Positions 37,598 through 47,865 of a stretch of 52,065 nt of DNA are shown here, one piece after another. Made by a program: the position numbers and the translations under genes. Positions within the stretch are counted from its first letter, which is position 1; each line of letters starts with the position of its first letter. Source of the stretch: Nitrospinae bacterium CG11_big_fil_rev_8_21_14_0_20_45_15 (GTDB lineage Bacteria; Nitrospinota; Nitrospinia; Nitrospinales; VA-1); the NCBI GenBank assembly GCA_002787235.1, contig PCWG01000037.1, forward strand, positions 1 to 52,065. Direction: 5' to 3'. The notes under the pieces were generated by a model. That model ran no database searches and was not told the DNA's origin. It saw nothing but the letters and a program-made list of their open reading frames with translations.

Positions 37598-37631
37598 ATG
37601 ACCCCGGTTTGACTCAGGAGCCGCTTCTTTT

Positions 37632-37636
37632 GGAGG
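37632..37636 (+). promoter_or_regulatory. Ribosome-binding site implying a CTG start
   Basis: GGAGG, 4 bases before a CTG at 37641. It is the only strong ribosome site near the conserved N-terminus of the transporter; the first in-frame ATG is 108 bases further on and lacks a good site. Confidence 0.45.
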
Positions 37637-37640
37637 CTTT

Positions 37641-39209
37641 CTGACGTCCTCGAATACAGATCTCCAATCCTTCAGACAACAGCGGTTTGTTTTATTACTG
37701 GGTATCGCTGTTTTCCTGATCCTGCTCTTCTTACCCGCTCCCGAGGGCATGAGCCCTTCAGCAAAACACCTCGTCGCCGTAGCCGTTCTCATGGCGATCT
37801 GGTGGATTGGCGAAGGAACCTCGCTGGCGATCACAGCTCTGCTTCCCATCATTCTGTTTCCCCTGCTCGGCATCATGCCCAGCAAGTCCGTAGCTTTCAA
37901 TTACGCCAACCACCTCATCTTTCTTTTCCTTGGCGGATTCATGATCGCCATCGCTATGGAAAAGTGGAATTTGCACAAGCGTATCGCCCTGCACATCATC
38001 CATAAAGTAGGAACCAGTCCGCAACGGATCGTCCTTGGTTTCATGACTTCCTGCGGATTTTTATCCTTGTGGATCTCCAATACCGCCGCAACCATGATGA
38101 TGCTCCCCGTCGGAATGGCAGTTGTCAATGAATTCGCCAAGCAAGCCCTCTTTAATGGAGAACGTAATCCCGAAACCGAGGCCAAAGTCTATCAAAGCCT
38201 CGGACTCGTTCTCATGCTTGGGCTGGCCTATTCTGCGAGTATCGGGGGAGTCGGCACACTCATCGGCACACCACCCAACATTGTCCTCGCGGGACTCTAC
38301 AAAGAACTTTACCCCGAATATGAAGAAATTTCGTTTTTCAAATGGATGCTGACCGCCCTTCCATTAGTCATCGTTTTTTTACCCCTGGTCTGGTTCTACC
38401 TGTGCCGATTCGTGTCCCCCTTCCCACTGTCCCAAATAGAGATGAAGGGCGGCGGCATCGAAATAATCCGCCGGGAATTGAATTCTCTAGGCCCCATGAA
38501 CCCCGCTGAAAAAGCCATCGCCGTCGTTTTTGCAAGCACCGCATTTTTGTGGATTTTCAGGCAACCCATCACACTCGGCACTTTCGAGATACCCGGATGG
38601 TCGAGCTTACTCGCCAACCCCAAATGGGTGCATGACGCCACCGTCGCCATAGCCATGGGAATTCTTTTGATGATCCTTCCAGCCAATCGCACTCAGGGAA
38701 TGGAACTCAAAGGTCAACGCGAATATTTCATACTCGACTGGGAAACCATCCAGCACAAAACCCCCTGGGGAATCCTGCTCCTTTTCGGAGGCGGCTTTGC
38801 CCTTGCCAATGGATTTTCAAAAACCGGACTCGACCACTGGATGGCCGCTCAATTTCACGCCATGAACGGTCTACCGCTCGGGTGGGCCATATTGATCTTA
38901 TGTCTGGGAGTCACCTTCCTCACGGAACTGACCTCCAACACCGCAACCGCGACCCTCATCCTGCCCGTCGTCGGAGCCGTAGCCGTGTCCGCACATTTTC
39001 ATCCTTTGGAGTTGATGGTCCCCGCCGCCCTGTCTGCATCATTCGCATTCATGTTACCCGTTGCGACACCACCCAACGCCATCGTCTTCGGAAGCGGATG
39101 GTTGAAAATCCCACAGATGACACGCGCCGGACTGGTTCTCAACCTTCTCGGAGCCATCCTCGTCACCACTCTCATGCTGACCCTGGCTAGAAGTTTGCTC
39201 ATCCATTGA
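37641..39209 (+). CDS. DASS-family dicarboxylate/anion:sodium symporter, probable non-ATG start
   Basis: Membrane symporter of the SLC13/DASS family, likely moving dicarboxylates such as succinate with Na+. It has the paired SNT motifs (ISNTAATMMMLPV and TSNTATATLILPV), GTLIGTPPNIV and VATPPNAIVFGSG. The conserved first helix (FVLLLGIAVFLILLFLPAPEG) lies upstream of the first in-frame ATG (37749), and no ATG, GTG or TTG exists in the open frame from 37602 to it. A CTG at 37641 behind GGAGG is the best start (522 residues). The next stop upstream is at 37599. It follows sdhE by 43 bases, fitting succinate use. Confidence 0.85.
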   Translation: MTSSNTDLQSFRQQRFVLLLGIAVFLILLFLPAPEGMSPSAKHLVAVAVLMAIWWIGEGTSLAITALLPIILFPLLGIMPSKSVAFNYANHLIFLFLGGFMIAIAMEKWNLHKRIALHIIHKVGTSPQRIVLGFMTSCGFLSLWISNTAATMMMLPVGMAVVNEFAKQALFNGERNPETEAKVYQSLGLVLMLGLAYSASIGGVGTLIGTPPNIVLAGLYKELYPEYEEISFFKWMLTALPLVIVFLPLVWFYLCRFVSPFPLSQIEMKGGGIEIIRRELNSLGPMNPAEKAIAVVFASTAFLWIFRQPITLGTFEIPGWSSLLANPKWVHDATVAIAMGILLMILPANRTQGMELKGQREYFILDWETIQHKTPWGILLLFGGGFALANGFSKTGLDHWMAAQFHAMNGLPLGWAILILCLGVTFLTELTSNTATATLILPVVGAVAVSAHFHPLELMVPAALSASFAFMLPVATPPNAIVFGSGWLKIPQMTRAGLVLNLLGAILVTTLMLTLARSLLIH

Positions 39210-42121: not shown

Positions 42122-43006
42122 TTAACCATTCATGACCCACCTTGCGAAAAATCCGTTCGGCAAATTCAGACCGGCTAATGACGGGATTTCCATCTCGCCG
42201 CATTCAAATGTTCCGGCAATGCCTTGCACCAGATAACGGGCGATGATGTTCTGCAACGTTAGCCCTGTGAAACCGGGCGTGTGACTCGACAACAAAAGCA
42301 GGCTCGGTTTTTCTACCAGGACTTCTTTGCAAGCCTGCATCAATTCGGACAAAGCTTCCTCAATCTTCCACACCTCGCCCTTGGGACCTCGACCGAAAGA
42401 AGGTGGATCCATAATGATGCCATCGTAAAGGTTGCCCCGATTCTTCTCACGCCGTAGAAATTTCAACGCATCGTCCACAATCCAACGCATGGGCTTCTCT
42501 TTCAGGCCGGAAGCTTCGCTGTTCGCGCGCGCCCAACTGACCGTCGCCTTGGAAGCATCCAAATGCGTGACATGGGCTCCGTGAGCCGCCGATACAATGG
42601 AGGACGCTCCGGTATAACCAAATATGTTAATGATCTTCAATTCGCGGTCAGTGCGAGACACCAACCCCTTCAACTGTTCTTCCAGCCACTTCCATTGCGC
42701 CATCTGTTCCGGAAACAAACCAAAATGCCCGAAAGGGGTGGGTTTGACGATAAAGGTCAAATCGCGGTAACGGATCGGCCAACCCTCTTCTGGAAGCGAA
42801 GCATGAAATTTCCAATCACCGCTGGCTGATTTTTTGCTGCCTTTCTGGTGCTGGAATTCGCCCGCGCAATCGCGCCAACTCTTTTCGCTCAAATTCTTAT
42901 TCCAGACCGCTTGTGGCGCAGGACGAACAAATCGGTACGGCCCCCAGCGTTCCAGTTTTTTAAAATCGCCGCAATCGAGTAATTCGTAATCCAAATCAGC
43001 TTTCAT
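42122..43006 (-). CDS. RlmI/RlmK-like class I methyltransferase
   Basis: A 294-residue SAM-dependent methyltransferase. The N-terminal region (LLDCGDFKKLERWGPYRFVR) is followed by the SAM-binding motif IFGYTGASSIVSAA (about 128-141), Asp150 at the end of strand 2, and the catalytic-type motif MDPPSFGRGPKGEVW (199-213). This layout fits RlmI/RlmK-type 23S rRNA methyltransferases, but the PUA domain is absent, so the exact RNA target is not sure. Cytoplasmic. Divergent from the RND adaptor gene. Confidence 0.85.
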   Translation of the reverse strand: MKADLDYELLDCGDFKKLERWGPYRFVRPAPQAVWNKNLSEKSWRDCAGEFQHQKGSKKSASGDWKFHASLPEEGWPIRYRDLTFIVKPTPFGHFGLFPEQMAQWKWLEEQLKGLVSRTDRELKIINIFGYTGASSIVSAAHGAHVTHLDASKATVSWARANSEASGLKEKPMRWIVDDALKFLRREKNRGNLYDGIIMDPPSFGRGPKGEVWKIEEALSELMQACKEVLVEKPSLLLLSSHTPGFTGLTLQNIIARYLVQGIAGTFECGEMEIPSLAGLNLPNGFFARWVMNG

Positions 43007-43238
43007 ATTCTATTTTTATCGTTAGCAACGTCCCGTTCAAATTTCAATTCGCCGCCCCCAACAACTTCCGGCAGGCACCCTCAAACAAAGAAAAAAAATT
43101 CAAAAAGAATTTTTTTTAAGCATAAACCAAATCCCTGAAATTATTGCTATTTAATTCATCCCACAAACTCATGAATCTGTTTGAATTAGCCGATGTGATT
43201 AAGATAAGATGCCTATATATCTAATAAATTCAATCATC

Positions 43239-43244
43239 AGGGGG
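43239..43244 (+). promoter_or_regulatory. Ribosome-binding site implying an ATC start
   Basis: AGGGGG stands 5 bases before an ATC codon at 43250, in frame with a perfect lipoprotein signal peptide. An AT-rich perfect hairpin (43091-43117) lies further up in the same divergent gap. Confidence 0.4.
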
Positions 43245-43249
43245 ATTAT

Positions 43250-44620
43250 ATCAAAAGCTGTAATCATACGACAATTTTAGCCCGAATAGGTGCAGGCATT
43301 CTCTTTTTCGCATTCATCACCGCTTGCGAAAATCCTGAAGACAAAAGTGCTGATGGAACCGGAGCAAAAAGAAAATTTGCTCTGCCTGTTCAGCTTGGAT
43401 CTGTGGTCTATAAAAATGTCGCCGATGAAGTCCGTGCGGTCGGCAATTTGCAGGCCAGTCAAAGGGTCACTCTTTCGGCAGAAGTAGCCGGTGCCGTCAC
43501 CCATATCAAGGTTGAGGAAGGGCAACAGGTCAAAGCAGGAGAACTCCTGGCCAGTGTCGATCCCAGAGGCTATTCGCTTGAGGTGAACCGTCTCGAAGCC
43601 GACCTTGCCGCGGCCAACAAGAGCATCGAAAAAGCTCAGAAGGGACTCCGCCCGGAGGAAAAAGATCAATTGACCGCTGCCGTTGCCAGTGCCCAAAGCG
43701 ATCTTGAGCTGGCGCAGAAGAACATCGCCCGAGTGAGGGATCTGGTTCAGCAAAAAGTATTGTCACAATCGGAGTTGGACCGGGAAACAAATAATCTTCG
43801 ACAGGCACAGGAAAATCTTCGCGTTCAACAGTCTGCCCTTTCTGCCAGCACACAGGCACGAGTAGAAGATATAGAAACGTTACAATTGCAGGCAGAGGCC
43901 ATCCATCAGCAATTGGGAACCGCGCGTTTGCAATTGGCCAAGGTCGATATCAAAGCACCCTTCGACGGAGTGGTGATTATGAAATCGGTCGAAAAAGGGA
44001 CTTATGTGAAATCAGGCGATCCCATTCTGGAGATGATCGGTTCTTCCACTCTCAAAGCAGTGCTGGAACTCCCTCAGGCATACAGAAACAGTCTGGGGAA
44101 ATTACGTTCTGCAAATTTTTTCGTGAAAGACCTCGGCATACACTTCAAACGCGAAAACATTACCCCCGAATGGGTTCGTGCGATTCCAGATGCGGATATT
44201 TTTTCTGGCGGAGTACAGCTTCAAATCGACCTCCCCGCAGCTCCAAAATCTTTATTTCCAGGTCTCACGCTGGAGAGCCAACTGAATTTTGGAGTGCGTA
44301 AAAATGTCCTGCATGTTCCTGCGGTCGCTCTGGTCATCACAGAAAAGGGAAAAGTCGTTTACATTCGCAAAGACGGACTTGCGCATCTGGTGCCCGTGAA
44401 AGCAGAGAAAGAAAAAGACGGCCTCGTAGAAGTTGATGATTTCACTCATCAACTGAACAGCAAGGTTGAATTGATCTTGCGTGGTTCCGGTGCTGTTTTC
44501 CCCGGTGCAAGCGTTTTCCCCATCGACCCCAATCCCAAGACTCATGTCGAAAAAGACTCTGCCAAAGAGCTCAAAGGTAAAGAGACCGACAGCAAAAAAC
44601 CCTTAAATTTGAAGTCCTGA
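43250..44620 (+). CDS. RND efflux periplasmic adaptor (lipoprotein), probable non-ATG start
   Basis: Membrane-fusion subunit of an efflux pump. The frame opens after a stop at 43205, and the first in-frame ATG/GTG/TTG is the GTG at 43403. Upstream of it lies KSCNHTTILARIGAGI, then LFFAFITAC, a full lipoprotein signal with lipobox ITAC and Cys26. ATC at 43250 behind AGGGGG is the best start (456 residues). The adaptor has a biotinyl-like VEEGQQVKAGELLASVDP, a long alpha-hairpin (about 100-210), then barrel and membrane-proximal domains. Its TGA shares one base with the permease ATG. Confidence 0.85.
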   Translation: MKSCNHTTILARIGAGILFFAFITACENPEDKSADGTGAKRKFALPVQLGSVVYKNVADEVRAVGNLQASQRVTLSAEVAGAVTHIKVEEGQQVKAGELLASVDPRGYSLEVNRLEADLAAANKSIEKAQKGLRPEEKDQLTAAVASAQSDLELAQKNIARVRDLVQQKVLSQSELDRETNNLRQAQENLRVQQSALSASTQARVEDIETLQLQAEAIHQQLGTARLQLAKVDIKAPFDGVVIMKSVEKGTYVKSGDPILEMIGSSTLKAVLELPQAYRNSLGKLRSANFFVKDLGIHFKRENITPEWVRAIPDADIFSGGVQLQIDLPAAPKSLFPGLTLESQLNFGVRKNVLHVPAVALVITEKGKVVYIRKDGLAHLVPVKAEKEKDGLVEVDDFTHQLNSKVELILRGSGAVFPGASVFPIDPNPKTHVEKDSAKELKGKETDSKKPLNLKS

Positions 44621-47600
44621 TGAAACTGATCGACCAGTCTATCCGTAATTATCATACCGTCACCGTCATGCTCATCCTGTCGAGCGTGATCGGCTACATT
44701 TGTTTTGAGAGCCTGCCCAGGCAACTCGCACCAACGGTAGACAAACCATTGATCGAAGTGAGAACGGAATACAGAGGACTTTCTCCCAATGAAGTGGAAC
44801 GCAACATCACCCGCCGACTTGAGGACCAATTGGAATCGGTGGAAGGACTGAAAAAGATGACCTCAAGCAGTCAGCATGGCTTGAGCACCATCAACCTGGA
44901 ATTTGAATGGGGGACTGATAAAAATATCGCCACCATTGATGTGAATAACAAATTGCAACAGGTCAAAAATTTGCCGATTCTCGCAGACAAACCCACATTG
45001 AAATCGGTTTCGTCTGACAATTCCAATCCCATCATGTGGATCATTTTTGACAAACCCGATCCTAAGATGCCAAACCTGAATCAGAATTATATGTTTCAGA
45101 TTGGTGAGGACATCGTGCGGCAAGCTCTTCTACGCATTGAGGGGGTTGCCGACGTCTGGCATTTTGGCGGTGAGGAACGGGAGATGCGGGTTGAGTTTGA
45201 CCCATTCGATATGGCGCGTCTGCACTTGACCTATGCTGAAGTGATCCAGAAATTATCACGCGAAAATCAAAACACCCGCGCTGGTTTTCACGATGAAGAA
45301 GGGCGCGCCTACACGGTGCGCGCTTTGGGAGAGTTCACCACCGCCGAAGAGATTCTCAATACAGTCGTCAAAAGAGATGGTGAGAAAACCATCCGTGTGC
45401 GTGATTTTGCGACGGTTGAGAATTCCTACAAACGCACGAACTCGCTGGTGCGTATCGATGGGAAATTATCCAATGCCTTTGGCATCATCCGCAAGGCCGG
45501 AGCCAATGTCGTTGAAACCTGCAACCTGTCCAGCGAAGCGGTCGAAAAACTGAATGAAGAATTACTCAATCGCGGCATCCCTCTAAAACTGGTGATCGTA
45601 TACAAGGATGTCGATTACATTGACGAAGCCATGCGTCTGGTCAAATCCAACCTGGCACTGGGTTCGGTCCTTGCCGTGATTTCACTCCTCTTATTTTTGG
45701 GCTCTCTGCGTTCGGTGTTGATTGTTTCTCTGAGTATCCCGGTCAGTTTGATTTCGGTTTTTATCATCCTCAAACTGCTGGATCGTACGATCAATATCAT
45801 CTCCCTTGCGGGCATGGCCTTTGCCGTGGGGATGGTGGTAGACAACTCCATCGTTGTGGTTGAAAATATTTACCGTCACCTGACCTTGAAAAAAGGCGTT
45901 TTCAAAGCCGCTTACGACGGTGCTTCGGAAGTATGGGGTGCCGTTTTGGCGTCTACTCTGACAACGCTGGCCGTTTTCGTTCCCATCATTTTCATTCAGG
46001 AAGAAGCGGGGCAGATGTTCAAGGACATCGCCATCACCATCAGCGCAAGTATCGCTTTGTCCTTACTGGTGTCCATCACCGTCATTCCAATGCTGACCAC
46101 CTTGCTCATTCGGTTGAAGCCGGGCGAAGAGTACCAACAGGGAATTTTACACCAAACCGTCTTCAAACCTTTGGTGATCGTGGGCACAGGGCTTTCTTCC
46201 ATGTACTCGAATTTCATGCAACGTCTGTTGGCACGTACCTTTTTTTCGGTGTTTGGGAAATTGACAATCATCGCCTTCATTGGCGGTTTGATGTGGTGGA
46301 GCCTTAAAATTCTTCCTGAGAGAGATTATCTGCCCTACGGCAACTCAAACATGGTTTTTATGATGGTCGATCCCGTTGCAGGCGTCCCCGCTCAGGAAAA
46401 CATGCGCTACCTTGCTCCTTATGAGGAAGAAGTAACGCATATGAAAGACATCAAACATATTTTTCTAGTGTTCTCTGATCGATTCAATGGCGGCGGTGCC
46501 ATCGTCGATCCTGATATATCATCGGGACAACGTGGTGAAGTCAAGATGGCTCTCAAATCAAAAGAAATGGGCGGACGCATCTTTCAAATTCCCGGCTTCC
46601 GCTTCGCCTTTGCCATGCAGAGACCGATCTTTCGGTCTGCCAGCAAAACTTTTCAGGTCGAAATCACAGGCCCTGATATTTTGAAACTGAAAAATTCAGC
46701 TCTTGAAATGATGCCAAAAATTTCAGATTTGCCCGGAGTGCATTCCGTTCGCCCTGAATTCAAATTTGGAAATCCTGAATTACGATTCATTCCAAAACGC
46801 GAATTATCGGCACGCCTCAATCTGGACATGCAGGAAATTGGCGACATACTGGAATCTCTGAATGCCGGGAAATATCTGGGTGAATTCAACGACCGCGGCG
46901 ACCCCATTGATTTTGTGCTGGTACAAAAGAAGTCCGATGCTACGTTGGGACTCAGCGAATACAAAAGCCTTCCTGTCTGGACCGCAAACGGAAAAATGAC
47001 ACACTTGGGTCAGCTCGCAGATGTTGAAATTGAAGCCGGACCGGCTCGCATTGACCATATAGAAAAAGAACGGGCTATCACTTTGCTGGTTCAGGTGCAT
47101 AAAGACTTCCCCATGCAAACCGTGATCAACAGGGTAGAAAAAGACATCCTTACCCCTGCGCGACTATCGCTCGATCGTGAGTTTGGTTTGCGGGTCGGAG
47201 GCTCGGCCGACGAACTGGCTTCCACGGAACGTTCCCTCGGCAACAGCTTTATGTACGCCGTCGGTTTTGTTTATTTATTATTGGTTTCTCTGTTTGCATC
47301 ATTCCTGAGACCCCTGGTCGTTATGCTGACAGTGGTGCTGGCGGTTACCGGATCGTTTCTGGGAATCGCCGGGAACAATTTATTACAGCAGGGAAAAATT
47401 GCAGATATTCTCCGCGAATGGAACGTTCCCAATGCTTCTGCAATGGCGAAAGACTGGAACTGGATCACTTTCGATATTTTAACGCAATTAGGAATTGTGA
47501 TTCTGGCGGGTATCGTGGTGAACAATGCCATCCTCATCGTCCATCAAATGCTGAACAATATCAAAGATGGAATGGAAGAACGCGAAGCCCTGCACGAATC

Positions 47601-47865
47601 CTGCCGGACTCGTCTGCGACCGATCATGATGACCGTGGTTTCAAGCGTTTTCGGAATGATACCTTTGGCTTTTGGAGAAGGTGCCGGGGCTGAACTGTAC
47701 CGGGGAATGGGAACCGCCCTGATAGGCGGCCTGAGCATCTCTGCGCTGTTCACACTCTTTCTTGTACCGTCATTGCTTTCCCTGCAAATGGATATCGGAT
47801 TCCATACACGAAAAAAAGATCTGGTAAAAGATTCTCTGGTGGAACAAGCACCTGTGGCGGGTTAA
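44620..47865 (+). CDS. RND efflux transporter permease (AcrB-like)
   Basis: Inner-membrane pump of 1081 residues with 12 predicted helices and two large periplasmic loops. The proton-relay helix reads GMVVDNSIVVVENIYRHL, with one Asp where AcrB has two; the helix-10 motif GIVVNNAILIVHQM has Asn where AcrB has Lys940. This combination is known in other RND subfamilies, so it is not a defect. ATG overlaps the adaptor stop by one base. Substrates are unknown: drugs, lipids or metals cannot be told apart here. No outer-membrane TolC-type gene is nearby. Confidence 0.95.
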   Translation: MKLIDQSIRNYHTVTVMLILSSVIGYICFESLPRQLAPTVDKPLIEVRTEYRGLSPNEVERNITRRLEDQLESVEGLKKMTSSSQHGLSTINLEFEWGTDKNIATIDVNNKLQQVKNLPILADKPTLKSVSSDNSNPIMWIIFDKPDPKMPNLNQNYMFQIGEDIVRQALLRIEGVADVWHFGGEEREMRVEFDPFDMARLHLTYAEVIQKLSRENQNTRAGFHDEEGRAYTVRALGEFTTAEEILNTVVKRDGEKTIRVRDFATVENSYKRTNSLVRIDGKLSNAFGIIRKAGANVVETCNLSSEAVEKLNEELLNRGIPLKLVIVYKDVDYIDEAMRLVKSNLALGSVLAVISLLLFLGSLRSVLIVSLSIPVSLISVFIILKLLDRTINIISLAGMAFAVGMVVDNSIVVVENIYRHLTLKKGVFKAAYDGASEVWGAVLASTLTTLAVFVPIIFIQEEAGQMFKDIAITISASIALSLLVSITVIPMLTTLLIRLKPGEEYQQGILHQTVFKPLVIVGTGLSSMYSNFMQRLLARTFFSVFGKLTIIAFIGGLMWWSLKILPERDYLPYGNSNMVFMMVDPVAGVPAQENMRYLAPYEEEVTHMKDIKHIFLVFSDRFNGGGAIVDPDISSGQRGEVKMALKSKEMGGRIFQIPGFRFAFAMQRPIFRSASKTFQVEITGPDILKLKNSALEMMPKISDLPGVHSVRPEFKFGNPELRFIPKRELSARLNLDMQEIGDILESLNAGKYLGEFNDRGDPIDFVLVQKKSDATLGLSEYKSLPVWTANGKMTHLGQLADVEIEAGPARIDHIEKERAITLLVQVHKDFPMQTVINRVEKDILTPARLSLDREFGLRVGGSADELASTERSLGNSFMYAVGFVYLLLVSLFASFLRPLVVMLTVVLAVTGSFLGIAGNNLLQQGKIADILREWNVPNASAMAKDWNWITFDILTQLGIVILAGIVVNNAILIVHQMLNNIKDGMEEREALHESCRTRLRPIMMTVVSSVFGMIPLAFGEGAGAELYRGMGTALIGGLSISALFTLFLVPSLLSLQMDIGFHTRKKDLVKDSLVEQAPVAG

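Follow-up and report, generated by a model that had tools for sequence, protein, structure and literature searches.

A near-cognate AUC codon as the probable start of an RND efflux adaptor-permease operon in Nitrospinaceae

Introduction

Translation has reportedly been initiated from all 64 codons (Hecht et al. 2017). Few bacterial genes that start at codons other than ATG, GTG and TTG have been characterised, and infC and sigR are the examples that PMC5472188 documents. The gene for initiation factor IF3, infC, opens with the near-cognate codon AUU in Escherichia coli and AUC in Streptomyces (PMC5472188). The Streptomyces gene sigR starts at GTC and was shown experimentally to be repressed by IF3, a factor that disfavours non-standard starts and, for sigR, sets both the ratio and the level of a coupled gene pair (PMC5472188).

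Here we describe an RND efflux adaptor gene that compares with both of these. Like infC, it has a proposed start that differs from AUG at the third base only, lies behind a strong Shine-Dalgarno sequence and is conserved among relatives. Unlike infC, whose product itself discriminates against such codons and so permits autoregulation, the adaptor has no known link to translation. In this respect it resembles sigR, being unrelated to translation, equipped with a non-standard start that is conserved in related species, and missed by gene callers. Moreover, sigR has an extended Shine-Dalgarno sequence and is the first gene of a pair coupled through ATGA, and the adaptor likewise precedes its partner, through TGATG. 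The two differ in the codon (ATC versus GTC) and in the products (an efflux pump versus a sigma/antisigma pair), and IF3 control would apply here by analogy. With the RND adaptor lipoproteins of TIGR01730 the gene shares protein family, lipoprotein signal and adaptor-permease order. Most of these relatives outside its own group (g1) carry GTG, ATG or TTG in the start region, whereas the genome studied here (G000), its nearest relative (G001) and one species of genus g8 have none before the ATC.

Results

The adaptor frame has no standard start ahead of its signal peptide

The window, by which we mean the whole stretch of 52,065 nucleotides that was analysed, comes from a 45-contig assembly of a Nitrospinaceae (Nitrospinota) genome, a marine bacterium of the nitrite-oxidiser type. 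Its features are collected in Table 1. The adaptor belongs to the RND periplasmic adaptor family (157.8 bits against TIGR01730, curated cut-off 94.9) and has an adjacent permease gene; the adaptor/permease overlap, TGATG or ATGA, is retained across most relatives.

Table 1 Coordinates of the features of the adaptor-permease locus and of a second non-standard start in the window.
Feature	Position	Strand	Remarks
Shine-Dalgarno GGAGG of the second non-standard start	37632..37636	+	
DASS sodium:anion symporter gene, CTG start	37641..39209	+	CTG also in G001, TTG in G002
Neighbour gene, divergent	42122-43006	-	Upstream of the adaptor-permease operon
Inferred -35 element TTGAAT	43181..43186	+	TTGAAT/TTGAAA-N16-17-[GC]ATAA[TG] equivalents in G001, G002 and g7
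Inferred -10 element GATAAG	43203..43208	+	Within a family-wide conserved upstream block
Shine-Dalgarno AGGGGG	43239..43244	+	Identical in G001; GGAGGGGG in genus g8
Proposed ATC start codon of the adaptor gene	43250..43252	+	No standard start in G000/G001; codon invariant in 20 sequences
Lipoprotein signal peptide (M)KSCNHTTILARIGAGILFFAFITA	43250..43324	+	Equivalents in most family members read
Lipobox cysteine (ITA^C)	43325..43327	+	Invariant column C26 of alignment A1
RND efflux adaptor lipoprotein, 456 aa	43250..44620	+	Stop TGA 44618-44620; TIGR01730, HlyD_3, HlyD_D23 and Biotin_lipoyl_2 matches
RND permease (ACR_tran)	44620..47865	+	656.8 bits; TGATG overlap with the adaptor stop

The adaptor frame follows an in-frame TAA (43205-43207), and its first ATG, GTG or TTG is GTG 43403; none of the three codons occurs in the 65 codons from 43208 to that GTG. 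An earlier note on this DNA had claimed as much and had placed AGGGGG 5 bases ahead of ATC 43250, and direct reading bore out both statements, with every coordinate correct. The spacer between AGGGGG and ATC is ATTAT (43245-43249). In a simple scoring scheme the Shine-Dalgarno score of ATC 43250 is 4.8, the level of good standard starts, and the same scheme finds no Shine-Dalgarno sequence at GTG 43403.

From 43250 onward the codons read IKSCNHTTILARIGAGILFFAFITAC up to the lipobox cysteine codon, and translation from the ATC would give MKSCNHTTILARIGAGILFFAFITA^C. This product has the makings of a bacterial lipoprotein, with a positive n-region, a hydrophobic core and the lipobox cysteine, as judged from its sequence. 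The frame ahead of GTG 43403 thus does encode the lipoprotein signal with its ITAC lipobox that the earlier note had described; the accompanying claim that a GTG start would delete this signal is also supported, and a check of homologues found equivalent signal peptides in most of those read. The ATC combines the properties of a near-cognate start: no standard start upstream in frame, a strong Shine-Dalgarno sequence at a spacing of 5, and a codon kept among relatives.

A separate species shares the arrangement

The nearest relative, Nitrospinaceae OFTM96 (G001), has an adaptor with 82% amino acid identity. Its gene has the same TAA and the same CAGGGGGA-N-TATATCAAAA as the window, its start region reads CAGGGGGAATATATCAAAA, and its adaptor frame contains no ATG, GTG or TTG from the TAA to beyond the lipobox. 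The mature part of the protein shows a dN/dS of 0.055 between the two species, which indicates that the adaptor gene is functional. Synonymous sites there are near saturation (pS 0.68, i.e. 68% differ), and the two are thus well separated species. The arrangement, being common to both, is thus genuine biology and no sequencing error.

Within 43239-43255, 16 of 17 bases are the same in the two species, against 26 of 45 in 43121-43165. Given the 68% synonymous difference, this match together with the shared missing start is more than chance would give. Conservation of the ATC isoleucine codon in this pair is unremarkable alone, since 12 of 18 conserved isoleucine codons are identical. Single-base indels between the two species fall at 43167, 43215 and 43235, all upstream of the ATC; the sole indel in the coding part that follows is of 6 bases and preserves the frame. 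Among the near-cognate starts common to the two species, only the ATC yields a positively charged n-region in both. Conservation of the Shine-Dalgarno sequence with the ATC, and the lack of a standard start in OFTM96 as well, support the ATC start that the earlier note had proposed.

The ATC is codon-invariant in 20 sequences of three groups

A search of the genome contigs with a single protein gave no match, and a scan with the alignment gave 34 loci. Codon conservation was assessed in 20 sequences from the groups g1 (two species, G000 and G001), g5 and g8. In all 20, the ATC and the preceding TAT are codon-invariant; among about 40 other columns conserved at the amino acid level in the same sequences, a single codon was kept in only one. 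The TAT is invariant in GTG-starting genera too, so the nucleotide constraint at that codon is not purely a start-codon constraint.

In the 12 species of genus g8, which include the single-cell genome LS_NOB, the start region consists of GGAGGGGG (with the variants GGGGAGG and GGAGGAGG) followed by ATTAT-ATC-AGA, i.e. ATTATATCAGA. A TTG five codons upstream of the ATC, with no obvious Shine-Dalgarno sequence of its own, is retained by 10 of the 12, and these species could start at that TTG rather than at the ATC. The other two have an in-frame TAG (L025) or CTG (L047) in its place, and L025 is also without a standard start upstream to the ATC. No standard-start column is common to all 12 species, and the ATC is; it is the only codon able to start all 14 sequences of g1 and g8. 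The LS_NOB adaptor (L145 / L141) has an early in-frame stop and an open frame of about 77 codons; either the gene is broken or the single-cell assembly contains a frameshift.

Elsewhere in the family, g7, g2 and the outgroup L037 have a GTG two codons before the TAT (GTG AAT TAT ATC/AAC/AGC/ACC), and in g5 an ATG or GTG precedes the TAT by three to five codons. Where the GTG start of other genera lies, the window reads GGG (43241-43243), inside AGGGGG. The adaptor tree places g8 as the sister of g5, not of g1, so that in g1 and g8 the ATC arrangement is either old or convergent. Nor is it universal within the genus: G002, a long-branched species listed in the same genus, carries AGC in place of the ATC behind AAAAAGG, and all its in-frame ATGs in this region lie at its inferred -10 element or before it. 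The G002 adaptor (L003 / L146) reads AAAAAGG-ATTATAGC-AAA-ATT, where an ATT start is possible. One contig labelled Alphaproteobacteria OFTM99 (L126, JAJFIL010000133.1) is likely mis-binned, since its adaptor falls firmly within Nitrospinaceae genus g7.

Promoter and 5' region

No promoter on the plus strand came out of a consensus scan. By comparison across relatives we infer a promoter TTGAAT-N16-GATAAG at 43181-43208, from which the mRNA would be expected to start near 43215; ATG 43209 would then sit upstream of the mRNA. An Rfam scan of 42900-43500 gave no match at E<=1, and folding of the 5' region gave structures not notably more stable than those of shuffled sequences (z 0.66, -1.09 and 0.73), which lends no support to a riboswitch-like or sequestering fold.

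Other non-standard starts in the genome

As a positive control, comparative reading recovered the ATT start of infC, which indicates that it detects such starts: infC of G000 and G001 (L076, L077) lacks any standard start, its AAGGAG being followed by ATT, and its relatives (including L071 and L053) have ATT, ATC or ATA behind a Shine-Dalgarno sequence, which is how infC is known to behave in other bacteria. The CTG at 37641 that the earlier note had listed as a companion case is real and shared with OFTM96. It lies in the open frame 37602-39209 of the symporter gene, and at this place OFTM96 too has GGAGG followed by CTG, with no standard start ahead of it. The CTG is a separate, lineage-specific TTG-to-CTG change. 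The presence of two non-standard starts in one window may be coincidence or local clustering.

Coding-potential and Shine-Dalgarno-based scans, which recovered both window cases and have limited sensitivity, found no comparable near-cognate-start gene in 400 kb (about 250 genes) of one other contig. The one gene flagged there by the coding-potential scan starts with an ordinary ATG that follows a purine-rich stretch. The Shine-Dalgarno-based scan returned five genes with a near-cognate codon behind a Shine-Dalgarno-like stretch, and in these five the coding-potential scan found no coding signal before the first ATG. The best standard starts of that contig and the window comprise 211 ATG, 39 GTG and 38 TTG. 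To judge from the 400 kb sampled on this single contig, the G000 genome seldom uses non-standard starts.

Alternative explanations

The earlier note had offered local sequence errors as one explanation. A substitution could have removed the start, or an indel could have cut ATG 43209 from the frame, and a 45-contig source assembly leaves some room for either; but OFTM96, an independent species, has the same missing start and the same Shine-Dalgarno-ATC block. The indel is contradicted further by the OFTM96 counterpart of ATG 43209, which adjoins the inferred -10 element and whose frame stops after five codons (ATG GCT TAT GCA CAA TAA). We regard such an error as extremely improbable, and we give equally little credence to GTG 43403 as the true start of a cytoplasmic or dead adaptor. 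That GTG is the first standard start and the choice expected of standard gene callers, but it lacks a Shine-Dalgarno sequence, the stretch ahead of it is coding sequence that G000 and G001 conserve, and the protein would lose a signal peptide and lipobox that most of the homologues read possess.

Re-initiation or a programmed frameshift from a short upstream frame seems only marginally less remote: short ATG frames do overlap the region in both species, yet they differ in phase, length and sequence, and none is conserved. A small chance is left for another near-cognate codon in the same frame. ATT 43274 is found in both genomes, and infC uses AUU, but this codon has no Shine-Dalgarno sequence and would give an n-region that lacks positive charge in OFTM96 (MSAQ...); ATA 43217 lacks conservation and falls where the indels at 43215 and 43235 put the two species out of frame with each other. 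About as unlikely is genome-wide relaxed start-codon use, which the earlier note had also suggested and which would add to the ATC start rather than replace it. The two cases among the 38 window genes, with infC besides, are in its favour, but the absence of comparable cases among the genes sampled on the other contig goes against it.

Discussion

The reading that we favour, with considerable confidence, is an intact, selected adaptor gene translated from the near-cognate AUC at 43250, 5 nt after a strong AGGGGG, and this weak start probably determines how much of both pump subunits is made. Initiation at the AUC, its low efficiency and the coupling are deductions, as would be any control by IF3. 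In the proposed mechanism, AGGGGG would position the 30S subunit with the AUC in the P site, where the ordinary initiator tRNA would decode it as formyl-methionine with a third-position mismatch. The position of the GTG start of related genera would, as GGG, have been absorbed into the Shine-Dalgarno sequence, with initiation shifting to the AUC three codons downstream. Synthesis of the permease is probably coupled to that of the adaptor through the TGATG overlap, and for that reason the weak AUC would probably govern the yield of both.

By analogy with infC and sigR, control of the AUC start by IF3 is plausible. A stronger proposal, that the AUC is kept as a regulatory device through which IF3 discrimination holds back the coupled production of both pump proteins and links the amount of the Nitrospinaceae efflux pump to the state of the translation machinery, in the manner of sigR in Streptomyces, is speculative, and we think it rather unlikely.

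The adaptor gene appears to be a new member of the small group of bacterial genes that start at near-cognate codons. If this is true, the conserved AUC-started efflux operon would be a case beyond translation factors and sigma factors, and near-cognate starts would be recognisable through species comparison. Gene callers restricted to the three standard starts would strip the signal peptides from such proteins. The comparison of GTG with GGG/ATC would also provide a natural example of a start codon that was lost and relocated while the gene remained functional.
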